This document shows, one piece after another, positions 41,217 through 53,524 of a stretch of 64,000 nucleotides of DNA (positions are counted from its first letter, which is position 1; every line of letters starts with the position of its first letter). The stretch comes from Flavobacterium foetidum (GTDB lineage Bacteria; Bacteroidota; Bacteroidia; Flavobacteriales; Flavobacteriaceae). The stretch covers positions 310,001-374,000 of the forward strand of contig NZ_SJTF01000002.1 in assembly GCF_004634245.1 (NCBI RefSeq), written 5' to 3'. The position numbers and the translations under genes are program-made. Under the pieces are notes generated by a model. The model saw nothing but the letters and a program-made list of their open reading frames with translations. It searched no databases and was not told the DNA's origin.

Positions 41217-41321
41217 GTTTCAAGTTTCAGGTTTCAAGTTTCAAGTTTCAGGTTTCAAGTTTCAGGTTTCAAGTTAAAAACCTTAGAACCTTAGTAGCTC
41301 AGCACCTTAGAAACTCAAAAA
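41217..41321. repeat. GTTTCAAG array followed by CTTAG-octamers
   Basis: About five GTTTCAAGTTTCAGG units (41217-41275) run into CTTAGAAC, CTTAGTAG, CTCAGCAC, CTTAGAAA octamers (41282-41316). The array lies between the convergent EmrB-like and yaaA genes. Confidence 0.88.
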
Positions 41322-43845: not shown

Positions 43846-44219
43846 TGGACATTGTAGGAGCTTTTTTCTTATTACTTTTTGCATTGATTTTTACAGTATC
43901 AAATATTCTTTTTATAAAAAGTTTAAAGAAAAACGAAATTACATACTTCAAATATAAATTAATATTTTTCATAATGTGTTTGGTTTCTTTCTTCACAACT
44001 GTTCTTATTTATTATTTATTTAATAAATATATTTTATCTGGCTTACTAAAAATACAAATGATTGACAGCACCTATGAAGCCAGATTTACTGCAGTTTCAT
44101 CGATTGGCATTTTAAATATTATAGGAAACTTTTTAATACTAAAATTTTATTTAAAAAAGATTTATTTAAAAGAAAAAAACATAAAAACAAAAGAAATAGA
44201 ATTAATCGGAAAAGAATGA
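43845..44219 (+). CDS. Small membrane protein of unknown function
   Basis: 124 residues, Lys- and Ile-rich, with three to four hydrophobic helices: residues about 3-25 (FFLLLFALIFTVSNILFI), 39-63, and 85-105. The C-terminus is charged (KEKNIKTKEIELIGKE). It starts inside the cca stop (TAATG) and overlaps ctaA by 4 bp (ATGA), so it is translationally coupled with both. No family is recognised. Confidence 0.75.
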   Translation: MDIVGAFFLLLFALIFTVSNILFIKSLKKNEITYFKYKLIFFIMCLVSFFTTVLIYYLFNKYILSGLLKIQMIDSTYEARFTAVSSIGILNIIGNFLILKFYLKKIYLKEKNIKTKEIELIGKE

Positions 44220-45241
44220 AAAAAGAGAATAAATCAGTAATCATTTGGTTACTATCGGGTTGTGTTTTATTATTTTTAATGGTTGTTGTGGGCGGTATCA
44301 CACGTCTAACCAATTCAGGTTTATCGATGACCGACTGGCATTTGGTAACCGACACATTTCCGCCAATGACAGAAGCCAAATGGCAGGCCGCTTTTGATGA
44401 ATATAAAAAGTTTCCTGAATATCAAAAGATCAATATTCACAACGATTTTCAATTAGCAGATTACAAATTTATTTATTTCTGGGAATGGTTTCACCGTTTC
44501 ATCGGGCGTATTATTGGTTTGGTTTTCTTTGTTCCTTTTGTTTACTTCTTAGCCAAAAAGAGATTAGATACTCCAACAATCAAAAAATGCATCGTGCTTT
44601 TGGCAATGGGAGGTTTCCAAGGATTTTTGGGATGGTTTATGGTCCGCAGCGGTTTAATCGATAACCCAGATGTGAGTCACTTTAGACTTTCATTACACTT
44701 AACTTTTGCTTTTATCACTTTTGCCTATACGCTTTGGGTTGCACTAGATTTGATTTATCCTGAAAGAAACATCAACAAGATTTTGCCACTTAGAAATATT
44801 GCGCGTTATGCTTTAGTTGCTTTATTAATCCAAATTATTTATGGTGGATTTGTAGCAGGATTAAACGCAGGATTAATTCACAATCATTGGCCTTTAATGA
44901 GCGATGGTGAGTTTATTCACGAATCGGTTTTTATTGAACAATCTTCTTTGATTAAAAATTTAATAGAAGGAAAAAGCGGAGTTCAGTTTGTACACAGAAC
45001 GTTTGCTTATGCGGTTGTTGCCGTTATTCTTTTCCTTTTCTTCAAAAGCAAAAAATATTCGCTCACGACAACGCAGGCTAACGGAATCAATATTTTAGTT
45101 GTTTTTGTTTTTATTCAATTCCTTCTTGGCGTTTTTACTTTGCTGTATAGCGTGCCTTTGGCATTGGGATTAATTCACCAGATTATGGCGTTTTTCCTTT
45201 TGAGCGCGATGACATTTACATTGCATCGTTTGAGCAAATAA
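44216..45241 (+). CDS. ctaA: Heme A synthase (COX15/CtaA)
   Basis: 341 residues with about eight membrane helices in two repeated halves. Family signatures are GGITRLTNSGLSMTDWH in the first half, the haem ligand region FWEWFHRFIGRIIG, and FVHRTFAYAV plus GLIHQIMAFFLLSAMTF in the second. It oxidises haem O to haem A for aa3-type oxidase, using a ferredoxin. Its 3' end is the source of a fragment repeated in the tandem array immediately downstream. Confidence 0.94.
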   Translation: MKKENKSVIIWLLSGCVLLFLMVVVGGITRLTNSGLSMTDWHLVTDTFPPMTEAKWQAAFDEYKKFPEYQKINIHNDFQLADYKFIYFWEWFHRFIGRIIGLVFFVPFVYFLAKKRLDTPTIKKCIVLLAMGGFQGFLGWFMVRSGLIDNPDVSHFRLSLHLTFAFITFAYTLWVALDLIYPERNINKILPLRNIARYALVALLIQIIYGGFVAGLNAGLIHNHWPLMSDGEFIHESVFIEQSSLIKNLIEGKSGVQFVHRTFAYAVVAVILFLFFKSKKYSLTTTQANGINILVVFVFIQFLLGVFTLLYSVPLALGLIHQIMAFFLLSAMTFTLHRLSK

Positions 45242-45255
45242 CATTTCTAAATCAT

Positions 45256-45289
45256 AAAAAAGGGCTGAAAAATTTCAGCTCTTTTTTTT
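45256..45289 (+). terminator. Terminator after ctaA
   Basis: Stem AAAAGGGCTGAAA with TTTCAGCTCTTTT (one G-T pair), a 3-nt loop, then a T-run. It lies 15 bp past the ctaA stop. Confidence 0.88.
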
Positions 45290-45350
45290 AGGTAATATTT
45301 TCTTGAAAATATCCGCCGAGCCTATGGCTCTCTAAATTCGGGACGTCTAT

Positions 45351-46094
45351 TTGTGACCGGATTAAAATCCGGCCCTACAAAATGTATCGAGCCGATGGCT
45401 CTTCTTAAAAAACGAAAATGTAATTGAGAAAAACAAAAAATTCCGTAGGAATGAAAAATATATTGTAGCAACGGATTTTAATCCGTTGGAATAATAAATC
45501 CGTCCTAGATAAAGTTCCGTAGGAACGGAACATTTTCATATACATCATAATTTTTTGCATTCTTTGTTGTATAGCGTGCCTTGGGTATTGCGCCATGACG
45601 TTTACATTGCATCCTTTGTAACCGGATTAAAATCCGGCCCTACAAAATGTATCGAGCCGATGGCTCTTCTTAAAAAACGAAAATGTAATTGAGAAAAACA
45701 AAAAATTCCGTAGGAATGAAAAATATATTGTAGCAACGGATTTTAATCCGTTGGAATAATAAATCCGTCCTAGATAAAGTTCCGTAGGAACGGAACATTT
45801 TCATATACATCATAATTTTTTGCATTCTTTGTTGTATAGCGTGCCTTGGGTATTGCGCCATGACGTTTACATTGCATCCTTTGTAACCGGATTAAAATCC
45901 GGCCCTACAAAATGTGTCGAGCCGATGGCTCTTCTTAAAACGAAAATGTAATTGAGAAAAATAAAAAATCCCGTAGGAATGAAAAATATATTGTAGCAAC
46001 GGATTTTAATCCGTTGGAATAGTAAATCCGTCCTACACAAAGTTCCGTAGTAACGGAACATTTTATATATACATCATAAAATTTTGCATTCTTT
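45351..46094. repeat. Tandem 265-bp repeat array carrying a ctaA remnant
   Basis: Three copies start at ACCGG 45356, 45621 and 45886, exactly 265 bp apart. Copies 1 and 2 are virtually identical; copy 3 has several differences and is truncated. Each unit holds short palindromes: CCGGATTAAAATCCGG, GAGCCGATGGCTC, TTCCGTAGGAA and CAACGGATTTTAATCCGTTG. At the end of copies 1 and 2 (45562-45619 and 45827-45884) lies a segment closely resembling the ctaA 3' end with about 35 nt deleted. The array ends 5 bp from the LytTR gene's stop. The 63-codon frames within it are not genes. Confidence 0.93.
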
Positions 46095-46099
46095 AAAAA

Positions 46100-46867
46100 C
46101 TATCCCAGCCAAGCTTTAAAATCCTGTACCTTTTCACGGCTTACAACTACCTCATCGTCTTTGTAACTCGGTAAAATCACTTTTAAACGTGAATTGGTGT
46201 ACACCTGAATTTCTTTGATTGCTTTTAAGGGAACAATAAATTTTCTGCTTACACGAAAGAAATCCTTTTTATCGAGCTCTTGTTCTAGAATTTCTAAAGT
46301 CGAATCAATTAAATAATCACGGTTTTCGAAGGTATGAATGTAAGTTCCTTTGTTTTCGCTAAAAAAACACTCAATTTCTTCTGTGTTTATTACTTTGAGA
46401 TGCTGACCGATTTTTACGGTAAATCTTTTTTTATAGCTTTTCTCAAACGGATTGGAAAGCATTTGTCGGATTTGTTCAAAATCCATTTTTAAGTTTTGAG
46501 TTTCGGCTTCTGCTTTTGGGATACGGCTTTTAAATTTATTGACTGCCGTTTCCAGATCATCTTCATCGATTGGTTTTAGCAGGTAATCGATGCTGTTGAG
46601 TTTAAAAGCTTTTAACGCATATTCGTCATAAGCTGTTGTAAAAATAATGGCGCTTTGAATATCAATTTTTTCAAAAATCTCAAAAGACAAACCATCTGAA
46701 AGCTGGATATCCAAAAATATCAAATCAGGATGACTGTTGTTCTCAAACCATTCTACCGATTCTTCTACAGAATGCAGCATAGTTTGTACGTTTATATCTA
46801 GTTTTTCGAGTTTTCGCTGCAACAATCTCGCAGCTGGTTTTTCGTCTTCTATGATTAAGGTTGTCAT
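46100..46867 (-). CDS. LytTR-family response regulator
   Basis: 255 residues. The receiver domain (1-120) has the phosphoacceptor Asp in PDLIFLDIQLSDG, Thr in AIIFTTAYDEYA and Lys in YLLKPIDEDD. The C-terminal LytTR DNA-binding domain (about 150-255) contains RFTVKIGQHLKVINTEEIECFFSEN and FFRVSRKFIVPLKAI (in parts). It is the partner of the LytS-type kinase at the head of this minus-strand operon, with four 2TM genes between them. LytTR regulators bind paired 9-bp direct repeats; I did not find a clear pair here. Confidence 0.93.
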   Translation of the reverse strand: MTTLIIEDEKPAARLLQRKLEKLDINVQTMLHSVEESVEWFENNSHPDLIFLDIQLSDGLSFEIFEKIDIQSAIIFTTAYDEYALKAFKLNSIDYLLKPIDEDDLETAVNKFKSRIPKAEAETQNLKMDFEQIRQMLSNPFEKSYKKRFTVKIGQHLKVINTEEIECFFSENKGTYIHTFENRDYLIDSTLEILEQELDKKDFFRVSRKFIVPLKAIKEIQVYTNSRLKVILPSYKDDEVVVSREKVQDFKAWLG

Positions 46868-50659: not shown

Positions 50660-51371
50660 TTTCTTTTTTTTTAAAGGTTCTAAGTTACTAAGGGTCTGAG
50701 GTTCTAAGGTTTTTTAGGTTTAAAGGTTCAGAGTGGCAAAGTGGCAAAGGTTTTATTTTCAAACTGTTAATTCCAACTCGGATACTTTGTCACTTTGTTA
50801 CTTTGTCACTCTGTTTCTTTTAATTTATACTTCAAAAGTATGCTGGTTTTTACTCTTTTAAAATTAAATACTACCGAGTTGTCGATTTTTGATGATGAAT
50901 TGTTTTTTTAAGGTGCTAAGGTTCTAAGTGGCTAAGTTTCTAAGTTTTTTAAAGATTCAGGAAAGCTTAGAAGCTTAGAACCTAAGCACCTTAGAACCTC
51001 TTCTTAAAGATTCAGGAAAGCTTAGCAGCTTAGAACCTTAGAAGCTCTTCTTAAAGATTCAGGAAAGCTTAGAAGCTTAGAACCTTAGCACCTTAGAACC
51101 TCTTTTAAAAGATTCAGGAAAGCTTAGTAGCTTAGAACCTAAGCACCTTAGAAACTCTTATTAAAGATTCAAGAAAGCTTAGCAGCTTAGAACCTAAGCA
51201 CCTTAGAAGCTCTTATTAAAGATTCAAGAAAGCTTAGCAGCTTAGAACCTCTTCTTAAAGATTCAGTAAAACTTAGTAGCTTAGAACCTAAGCAGTTTAG
51301 AACCTCTTTTTAAAGATTCAGGAAAGCTTAGTAGCTTAGAACATAAGCACCTTAGAACCTCTTTCTAAAGA
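50660..51371. repeat. 55-bp minisatellite with nested 8-bp units
   Basis: AAAGATTC-headed units begin at 50951, 51006, 51053, 51108, 51163, 51218, 51257, 51312 and a partial one at 51367. Spacings are 55, 47, 55, 55, 55, 39, 55, 55, so units differ by whole 8-bp CTTAGNN-type steps. The last partial copy overlaps the TonB receptor's stop codon. To the left, GGTGCTAAGGTTCTAAG-type inverted octamers (50672-50945) precede the array. No gene is visible here. Confidence 0.92.
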
Positions 51372-53524
51372 TTTCTCAACTGATTCTCATTTTTATTCTG
51401 GCTTATAGTCCAGAAGAAACCTACAAAGAAAAAACGGTCTGCAGTTGGCACAATGGCTTGTCTGTTGTAGACTCCGGCTGCGTCTGGTGTTTTAGCATAA
51501 TCGTATCCGAAAATGTTCTGAGTTCCTAAAATATTCGATACAGAAAAATAAATAATCTTTTGTGTTGTCAGCAAGTACGCCCAGTTAAAACTTAAACTGT
51601 TGTATGCCTTTGTTTTGCCGTTCATAAATTGTGTCTGATTTGGATCGTTGTACGGACGACCTGTACTGAAACTGTTTGTAAAACCAATCTGAGATTTCCA
51701 GTCTGTAATGAAATATTTGGTTACAACCGATAAGTTATGATTGGCTACAAAACTTGGTGTTGCCATAGTTGGAAAGTTTTTGTATTGTCTTTCAGAATCT
51801 ATGTAAGAATACGAAACCCAATATTCGAGGTTTTTATACAAATTGCTGTCTCTCCAAAACAAATCCAATCCTTTTGCATAACCCGAACCGTTATTATTGA
51901 AAACCGAATTGTACTGAATATCTCTTGTATCGTACTGAACCAAATTGCTGTAATCCTTGTAATATGCCTCTGCCCTGAAAGTTTGTCCCGGTTGGGTAAA
52001 CTGATAATTTAATATATAATGTCTAGCTTTTTCGCTTTCAAACTGATGGTATTTTGAATATTTAATGTAATCTACTACAGGAGCTTGCGTAAAGTCTCCG
52101 TAAGCAAATGAAAACTGGCTGCTCTTAGAAACTTTGTATGCTAGTGAAGCTCTCGGCGCAATTGCAGTTTCATCTAAAAGACTGTTGTAAGACAATCTGA
52201 AACCTACTTTTGCCGCCAACTTTTTAGAAAACTGAATATCTCCTTCGGTGTAGAAAGCCGCAATATTGGAATTGTAACCGTTTGAAGCCTGAATGGAAAT
52301 ATTATCATCAAAATTTTCATTGAATTTAGTGATGAAATAATCGGTACCAAAAGATAATTTGAAACGATTAGAAAAGCTTTTTCTTAATTTAAGTTTAAGC
52401 TGCGCAGCATTTTCATTATTATCAAGATTGTTGATGTCGTATTTTACTTTGTTTTTGCTGTATCCGTAGCTTAGACCAGTTGTCAATTGCCAGCCGTCTC
52501 CAAAATTACCTTTATAAGAAGAATTCAGATAAAAATTGTTATTATTCAAATCTGTTCTAACTGGATTCTCAAAATTGATGTTTTTTTGGTTCAAATCGAA
52601 TCTTTCTGAATCAAAAGCGGCATACATTTTAAAAATTCCGTTTGTGAAATTGTAGCGGTAAACCAACTCTCCGCCAAGCGACTGATAAGGACTGTTCCAA
52701 TCGACATTTTGAGGAATCACCGCCTGATAAGGAGCCAGATTAATATAAGCCATATTTACGCTCAACGAACTTTTTTTCCATTTTTGAGTATTTCCTAAGC
52801 TTAGGCCAACAGTCATTAAACCAATATCTGTTTTGTTGTGATCAGGTTCGTCCTGAGTATTCAGAAGCAAGACACTCGACAATGCTTCTCCGTATTCAGC
52901 TGAATATCCTCCAGTTGAAAACGCAATTCCGCTGAATAAAAAAGGAGAAAAACGGCTTCTTGTTGGCAAATTGTTCGTAGTCGCGCCATAGGGTTGCGCT
53001 ACACGAATTCCGTCAACAAAAGTCTGGGTTTCGCTGGCTTCACCTCCACGTACAAACAAACGACCGTCTTCGCCTACAGATTGTGTTCCTGGCAAGGTTT
53101 GCAGTGCGGCAATAATATTTCCGGCAGAACCCGCAGTAGTTACAATATCGAGCGGTTTTAAAACCGAAACCCTAGCCTTTTCACCAGATTCCATGGTTCC
53201 GGCAGTAATTACAACAGCATCCAGAGCATTTACATTTTCTTTCAGTTTTATCGTCTGATCTTTAAAATTGGTTACATCTATTTCTTTGGTAAAAGTTTCA
53301 AACAATAAAAAACTAATTACTATTGTCTGGTTTCCTGCAGTTGTAGTCTCAAAAGAAAAATCTCCCGTTTCAGAACTTGAAGCACCATCGTAAGTTCCGT
53401 CCAGATAAATGTTTGCTCCTGCTACTGGTTTTCCTTTCTGGTCAAGAACTTTTCCTGAAATGATGTTTTGAGCGAAAGTAAACACACTCATTAATAAGAA
53501 AATAAACGTAATTCTGGTTTTCAT
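51365..53524 (-). CDS. TonB-dependent outer-membrane receptor with CarboxypepD_reg domain
   Basis: 719 residues. Signal peptide to about residue 18, then a CarboxypepD_reg-like domain (about 20-100: ISGKVLDQKGKPVAGANIYL), a plug with LKPLDIVTTAGSAGNIIAALQTLPGTQSVGEDGRLFVRGG (in parts), and the beta-barrel to the C-terminus. It lacks a SusD partner nearby, so it is not a classical polysaccharide locus. It may take up siderophores or small ligands. TACATTTG on the minus strand (53578-53585) is a candidate -7 element. Confidence 0.93.
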   Translation of the reverse strand: MKTRITFIFLLMSVFTFAQNIISGKVLDQKGKPVAGANIYLDGTYDGASSSETGDFSFETTTAGNQTIVISFLLFETFTKEIDVTNFKDQTIKLKENVNALDAVVITAGTMESGEKARVSVLKPLDIVTTAGSAGNIIAALQTLPGTQSVGEDGRLFVRGGEASETQTFVDGIRVAQPYGATTNNLPTRSRFSPFLFSGIAFSTGGYSAEYGEALSSVLLLNTQDEPDHNKTDIGLMTVGLSLGNTQKWKKSSLSVNMAYINLAPYQAVIPQNVDWNSPYQSLGGELVYRYNFTNGIFKMYAAFDSERFDLNQKNINFENPVRTDLNNNNFYLNSSYKGNFGDGWQLTTGLSYGYSKNKVKYDINNLDNNENAAQLKLKLRKSFSNRFKLSFGTDYFITKFNENFDDNISIQASNGYNSNIAAFYTEGDIQFSKKLAAKVGFRLSYNSLLDETAIAPRASLAYKVSKSSQFSFAYGDFTQAPVVDYIKYSKYHQFESEKARHYILNYQFTQPGQTFRAEAYYKDYSNLVQYDTRDIQYNSVFNNNGSGYAKGLDLFWRDSNLYKNLEYWVSYSYIDSERQYKNFPTMATPSFVANHNLSVVTKYFITDWKSQIGFTNSFSTGRPYNDPNQTQFMNGKTKAYNSLSFNWAYLLTTQKIIYFSVSNILGTQNIFGYDYAKTPDAAGVYNRQAIVPTADRFFFVGFFWTISQNKNENQLRNL

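Follow-up and report, generated by a model that had tools for sequence, protein, structure and literature searches.

How did a tandem array of hairpins, carrying pieces of a neighboring gene, come to lie between ctaA and a LytTR response regulator gene of Flavobacterium foetidum, and what kind of repeat is it made of? The window analyzed here is a stretch of 64,000 nucleotides (C21:310001-374000) from a genome of 5.1 Mb in 28 contigs, and the copy number of the array is that of this one assembly. TRF, run on the window, detected a tandem array at 45350-46094 with a period of 265, 2.8 copies and a score of 1390. The array sits within a 544-kb contig between two convergent genes. On its left is ctaA (44216..45241, plus strand), an ORF for the COX15/CtaA heme A synthase (PF02628, E 5.4e-99) and the donor of the captured fragment, whose product is at most 97% identical to proteins of named Flavobacterium species. 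On its right is the LytTR response regulator gene (46100..46867, minus strand; PF04397, PF00072), with the array in its 3' flank. A hairpin with T tracts on both strands lies 3' of ctaA (45258..45290; terminator-like site on the minus strand at 45279-45264, plus-strand T tract read from the sequence), and its position could suit the ending of both convergent transcripts. Between this terminator and the array is a lone hairpin, GAGCCTATGGCTC, read from the sequence at 45318..45330.

The array contains three hairpin sets. Unit 1 (45350..45614, plus strand; TRF and repeat search) is made up of hairpin set X1 and a remnant of ctaA, and unit 2 (45615..45879, plus strand; TRF, repeat search and alignment) of set X2 and a ctaA remnant. 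The two units differ at a single base, G at 45355 and A at 45620. The third set, X3 (45880..46094, plus strand; TRF, repeat search and alignment), has diverged and is without a ctaA remnant. It differs from X1 in 14 aligned columns, 3 of which are gaps, and from X2 in 13, and its end is 5 bp short of the LytTR stop codon at 46100. The original prediction had described two copies virtually identical over 265 bp, a third that diverges and ends 5 bp before that stop codon, and four different palindromes per unit. All of this agrees with the alignments and with our count of five hairpins of four types per unit, a core, TTCCGTAGGAA, being common to two.

Reading through unit 1, the first hairpin is tagged REP 1, GTAGGGCCGGATTTTAATCC (45359..45378, minus strand; again at 45624-45643 and 45889-45908; pattern search). 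Outside its tag is a second hairpin, GAGCCGATGGCTC (45389..45401, also in units 2 and 3; sequence and terminator scan). Tagged REP 2, GTAGCAACGGATTTTAATCC (45465..45484, plus strand; again at 45730-45749 and 45993-46012; pattern search), likewise has a second hairpin outside its tag, ATTCCGTAGGAAT (45440..45452; identical in unit 2 and with one base altered in unit 3; sequence and alignment). REP 1 and REP 2 are inverted relative to each other and have their GTAG tags on the inner side, which makes the pair a tail-tail dimer. The last hairpin, GTTCCGTAGGAACGGAAC, is terminator-like on both strands (45514..45531; again at 45779-45796 and 46042-46059; terminator scan). One unit gave a fold z-score of -3.8 as DNA and -2.9 as minus-strand RNA. 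Between 45100 and 46200 there were 9 terminator-like sites compared with 0.9 expected, mostly copies of one hairpin on both strands. The hairpins of the array probably provide the convergent transcripts with structured ends of a terminator-like kind. Nine Rfam matches had E values of up to 1, all of them short of the gathering score, and these were taken as chance. No phage relative of 45200-46150 was found. Two other repeats were seen in the window: an array of related repeats at 50949-51373 (TRF periods 55, 94, 110 and 149), built on CTTAGAACC and AAAGATTCAGGAAA and unlike the REPs, and 8.4 repeats of the heptamer GTTTCAA at 41217-41275, in the gap between two genes.

The array is a BIME-like REP cluster of a GTAG-tagged palindrome family in Flavobacterium. 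The palindrome GGATTNNAATCC occurs 51 times in the genome, compared with 5 times for the reversed control, and GTAG lies at 0-6 nt from 42 of the 51 (1 in the control). The pairing of the stem and the second hairpin were counted in own-genome stretches picked by similarity to the unit rather than as random samples. Of 37 distinct tagged REPs, 35 had a Watson-Crick pair at the first stem position beyond the core and 35 at the second, using three and two kinds of pair, respectively, and 26 had one at the third. Of 40 REPs, 36 had a second hairpin no more than 45 nt away on the 5' side of the tag, compared with 16 of 72 control windows. In relatives, the second hairpin was found at 38 of 47 REPs and in 19 of 91 control windows. 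Neighboring tagged REPs are often on opposite strands, forming inverted dimers. They are similar in this to REPINs, reportedly introduced by Bertels and Rainey in 2011 as inverted REP pairs. Here, the spacing within a pair varies by site, and therefore movement of the pair as one unit is not supported.

Tandem reiteration was found in two REP arrays, that of the window and one on contig C15 (C15:25829-27160, L029), which has 202-bp units in about 5.5 copies and no match to its local flanks. We also asked if the capture of a flanking gene is a habit of REP arrays by comparing 9 other REP regions with their local flanks. No clear gene fragment was found, and capture is therefore not supported as a habit. 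Six of the regions were without a match, and two had short inverted flank matches (28 nt at 89% and 34 nt at 76%). The region at C8:46.7-47.3 kb contained a tandem duplication (93 nt, 95.7%). This duplication (C8:46690-47260, L043) has a spacing of about 0.35 kb by eye and includes REPs and the palindrome CCTAACAGGTTTTAAAAACCTGTTAGG.

The piece of ctaA in the units was then compared with the gene. Remnant 1 (45562..45618, plus strand) is ctaA 45138-45166 joined to 45204-45232 with one G shared, and remnant 2 (45827..45883, plus strand; repeat search and alignment) is identical to it. The resemblance to ctaA with an internal loss of about 35 nt, noticed originally, was upheld on alignment, and the values can now be given as 57 nt of remnant for 95 nt of ctaA, with 38 nt missing inside. 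Each half matches ctaA at 26 of 29 positions, compared with a best of 21/29 among 5000 Markov-generated 29-mers and a best of 22/29 among 8825 29-mers elsewhere in the window. For comparison with relatives, 101 ctaA loci were collected, 22 without a LytTR match in the stretch were dropped, and 79 were used. The remnant differs from its own ctaA at 6 of 58 compared positions and from the ctaA of the 79 relatives at 10 or more, which rules out the ctaA of another species among these as its source. At three sites the remnant is changed where ctaA is invariant in 55 of 55 close relatives, as expected of functionless sequence. The remnant is most likely a passenger that does nothing locally.

The junctions and the differences between copies suggest how the array was built. 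Both fusion points show 4-bp microhomology, CTTT where the end of a set meets ctaA and TTTG where ctaA meets the start of the next set. None of the remnant joints is inside a REP, with one only a few nt from REP 1, and thus the first duplication need not have involved an enzyme. At X position 6, set 2 has the base of set 3, and at every other variable column (13) it follows set 1. An unequal crossover, in which the outer copies of an array of two exchanged between X positions 6 and 37, explains this pattern in one step, the left side of this signature being one base only.

The same gap was examined in relatives. It was 125 bp or less in 12 of 55 closer relatives, and 14 of the 55 had a strict tagged palindrome in it. 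Tandem repeats with a period above 21 were absent from the gaps of these 55, where the periods found were 7-21. None of the gaps of the 79 relatives matched the 3' end of this genome's ctaA, a search that diverged pieces could escape. Similar hairpin sets occur in single copy in the gap of relatives such as L069, L079 and L093, with the halves of the set about 120 nt farther apart in L079. Due to these single sets, one set is likely the older state. No other strain of the species was found in the collections searched, from which very near records may be absent.

From these data, the following course of events can be proposed. First, a single REP dimer would have arrived 3' of the ctaA terminator, along with its additional hairpins. 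By tandem duplication, the dimer's end would then have been fused at a 4-bp match to a site within ctaA, so that the 3' end of ctaA and the former spacer lay in front of the second copy. This stretch would have been cut down to 57 nt by deletions, and the two copies would have yielded the third by unequal crossover. As the simplest account of the locus, this needs no enzyme after the first arrival of a REP. The data fit, and suggest, a history of capture, decay and amplification in which the order of events is inferred. Such a history had been proposed at the outset, as a duplication that captured the ctaA end followed by decay and a newer amplification, and the junctions and copy differences support it. 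Of the triplication proposed with it, the array itself stands, and is better described as one older and one recent duplication with a third set that lacks the ctaA piece.

What could have spread the REPs themselves? A Y1 transposase gene at C8:114951-115412 (minus strand, 153 aa) adjoins about 0.8 kb of the same palindromes, which continue up to the end of the contig. Contig C13 begins with sequence shared by the C8 end, both inside a REP array, and therefore the two contigs probably join. The protein matches PF01797 at 101 bits and contains the motifs DHVH, WQ and YIQNQEEHH. The Y---NP motif of RAYTs (class 2 TnpA-REP) was not found. It fails the NCBIfam model REP_Tyr_transpos (34.5, cut-off 80) and passes that of IS200 (77.5, cut-off 55). 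By the signature Y---Q--HH, DH[IV]H and WQ, it would belong to TnpA-Y1 subclass 1.2. All 22 genes of the group with at least 66% identity to it have Y---Q--HH and DH[VIL]H (one as DHLH), and 21 of the 22 have WQ. The check suggested earlier, for a REP-like family with a RAYT, thus has a positive outcome with a qualification: GTAG-tagged REPs do lie beside a Y1 transposase, but one that fails the RAYT motif; the enzyme has RAYT-like surroundings and is not filed as a RAYT. IS200/IS605 insertion sequences are typically present in several near-identical copies per genome. In contrast, genes of the 66% group are single in 21 of 22 genomes, with two in G162 (78 and 76% identical to the query).

By analogy with TnpA-REP, the C8 transposase would act in trans on REPs exposed as single strands, and it is the most likely candidate for mobilizing this family. 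Other Y1 genes of the genome were considered as the partner and rejected: no strict REP was found at the loci of three query-found genes, beside which other palindromes were seen by eye. The Y1 genes of the genome also include those at C8:58496-58840 (L039), C28:178507-178851 (L038), C21:144587-144931 (L040), C8:32206-32496 (L042) and C11:150825-151061 (L041), the last with internal stops. Palindromes near these genes include CCGTGGTTGAAACCACGG, CTCCAGATTTATCTGGAG, GCCTCGGAGAGGC (a tandem array) and CCTGCAAGGTTTT-AAAACCTTGCAGG.

Across the genus, the transposase group and the tagged palindromes tend to occur together. The first sample contained 150 genus genomes, our own included, of which 22 had an intact homologue at 66% identity or more and 128 did not. 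The median number of strict tagged palindromes was 8.5 in the 22 and 0 in the 128 (Mann-Whitney p 2.5e-14, uncorrected for relatedness). One genome, G135, had the gene and 0 strict REPs, and three without an intact group member had REPs (G159, 17; G098, 11; G131, 6). Two more counted as without the gene have broken group genes only, G144 with 57 REPs and G089 with 9. In a second sample, strict REPs numbered 23, 31, 14 and 16 in four additional genomes of the genus that carry the group, compared with 0-3 in the remaining 21 (5 shared with the first sample).

The association was also seen at the gene itself. Strict REPs were present at 18 of the 22 fetched loci of the 66% group (of 23 such genes) and at 0 of 8 fetched loci of homologues at 51-57% identity. 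With a wider pattern, which allows the tag G[TC][AG]G and one more core, and with the four second-sample genomes added, 24 of 26 loci had a tagged REP within 700 nt of the gene and 2 had none (control 0). REPs were on both sides at 9 of the 26 loci, inverted at 5 of these. The nearest upstream REP was in plus orientation in 18 of 21 cases and the nearest downstream REP in minus orientation in 10 of 12. Hairpin density around the 66% group genes was 4.92 per kb within 300 nt and 0.44 farther off, compared with 0.58 and 0.16 for homologues at 50-57%. A tree set these 50-57% homologues apart with support of 98/99, and the 66% group was not recovered as one clade. At six loci of 59-67% homologues from other families, palindromes were at 3.83 per kb nearby and 0.23 farther off, with none at 2 of the 6; at 19 more distant loci the values were 1.14 and 0.40. 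Some palindromes beside the 62-67% homologues of another family have a similar layout and a different sequence. No strict REP was found at the other-family 59-67% loci, nor a GTAG tag at the palindromes in the flanks viewed. In another family of the order (L188, L189 and L190), homologues of the transposase lie among CTAAGATT-NN-AATCTTAG-like palindromes, GTTCCGTAGGAAC and GTCGC-GCGAC hairpins.

Various features of the locus are shared with known systems. In Di Nocera et al. (2013; PMC3733652) and Nunvar et al. (2010; PMC2817692), REP clusters are described as tandemly reiterated together with pieces of flanking DNA, and the tagged short palindromes, inverted dimers and reiteration of flanking DNA in our array are like these GTAG clusters and BIMEs. 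The differences are the core GGATT-NN-AATCC, the few nt from tag to core, and the second hairpin outside the tag. The 42 tagged copies are below the more than 100 given in the abstract of PMC2817692. The word Flavobacter* is absent from the main texts of these two papers. According to the 2018 survey by Quentin et al. (PMC6006769), the REP families surveyed are mostly proteobacterial and REPs are tied to class 2 enzymes. Our system resembles RAYTs (class 2 TnpA-REP in that survey) in having a HUH Y1 enzyme beside GTAG palindromes, at low copy number and with palindromes genome-wide. RAYTs have Y---NP and a gene flanked by two inverted REPs, whereas the F. foetidum enzyme has Y---Q--HH, scores below the RAYT cut-off and has tagged REPs on one side only. 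With subclass 1.2, as outlined in the same survey, it shares DH[VIL]H, WQ, Y---Q--HH, a length of 153 aa, occurrence in Bacteroidetes and mostly one copy per genome. That outline lists no typical terminal structures for subclass 1.2 in general, a tendency, whereas REP-like tagged hairpins lie near nearly all group genes here. TnpA-REP cleaves REPs in single-stranded DNA close to the hairpin, aided by GTAG (PMC8266576). RepRanger (PMC12306157) counted palindromes in two Flavobacterium species, and the word RAYT is absent from the portion consulted. Among the open-licence papers listed by our searches, none paired subclass 1.2 with REPs in its title or the beginning of its abstract. The array itself thus looks ordinary for REP clusters, and what is apparently new is the partner enzyme.

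Overall, we are fairly confident in an explanation in which a REP cluster grew by microhomology duplication and crossover, and its REPs were spread in trans by the Y1 transposase. It is unlikely that the transposase made the amplification as well, by forming a REP-to-REP circle that included the ctaA piece and was copied by rolling circle. A rolling-circle model for BIMEs was published by Nunvar et al. (2010; PMC2817692), and the exchange interval between X positions 6 and 37 contains REP 1 with its tag. However, plain unequal crossover fits this interval equally well, and the older duplication ends in ctaA and about 35 nt past the last hairpin, not at REPs, and with 4-bp microhomology. The palindromes could instead be independent of the transposase and kept as terminators or RNA stabilizers, the association reflecting common ancestry only. 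The excess of terminator-like sites, mostly from one hairpin on both strands, and a genus-wide test made without tree correction are in keeping with this idea. We consider it quite unlikely, given the GTAG beside most palindromes, often in alternating orientation, the presence of palindromes at one transposase group and not at the fetched loci of the next, and the palindromes of another sequence but a similar layout next to some 62-67% homologues in another family.

Assembly is another matter to weigh, since two units one base apart over 265 bp, and the ends of C8 and C13 in another array of the same family, are what a miscounted array might look like. Still, the array is inside a long contig and its three copies can be told apart, which makes it very unlikely that the true copy number differs. 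Lastly, the remnants might act on ctaA. They are identical and in the orientation of ctaA, and a read-through transcript from the LytTR side would be antisense to the ctaA 3' end (26/29 twice), damping ctaA or tying it to the regulator. Against this are the changes at three positions invariant in close relatives, the lack of a match in the gaps of the 79 relatives, and a terminator-like hairpin at 46059-46042 (minus strand) between the LytTR stop codon and the remnants, and we regard such a function as extremely improbable.

With spread in trans by the Y1 transposase and growth by duplication and crossover as the preferred reading, the array is a tidy example of a REP cluster picking up a piece of a neighboring gene. 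We lean slightly toward a broader reading, in which the subclass 1.2 signature marks a further kind of REP-associated transposase, nearer to IS200 than to RAYTs, with its own two-hairpin GTAG REPs in Flavobacterium and with palindromes that changed along with the enzyme beside the 62-67% homologues in another family of the order (CTAAGATT-NN-AATCTTAG, no GTAG seen). That no tag was seen in genomes beyond the genus makes this broader reading slightly less likely than first judged. If it is true, there would be recognition of a tag and hairpin in trans outside the RAYT branch, whether arisen or retained there, and the tagged REPs with their IS200-like enzyme would be a small, assayable system.
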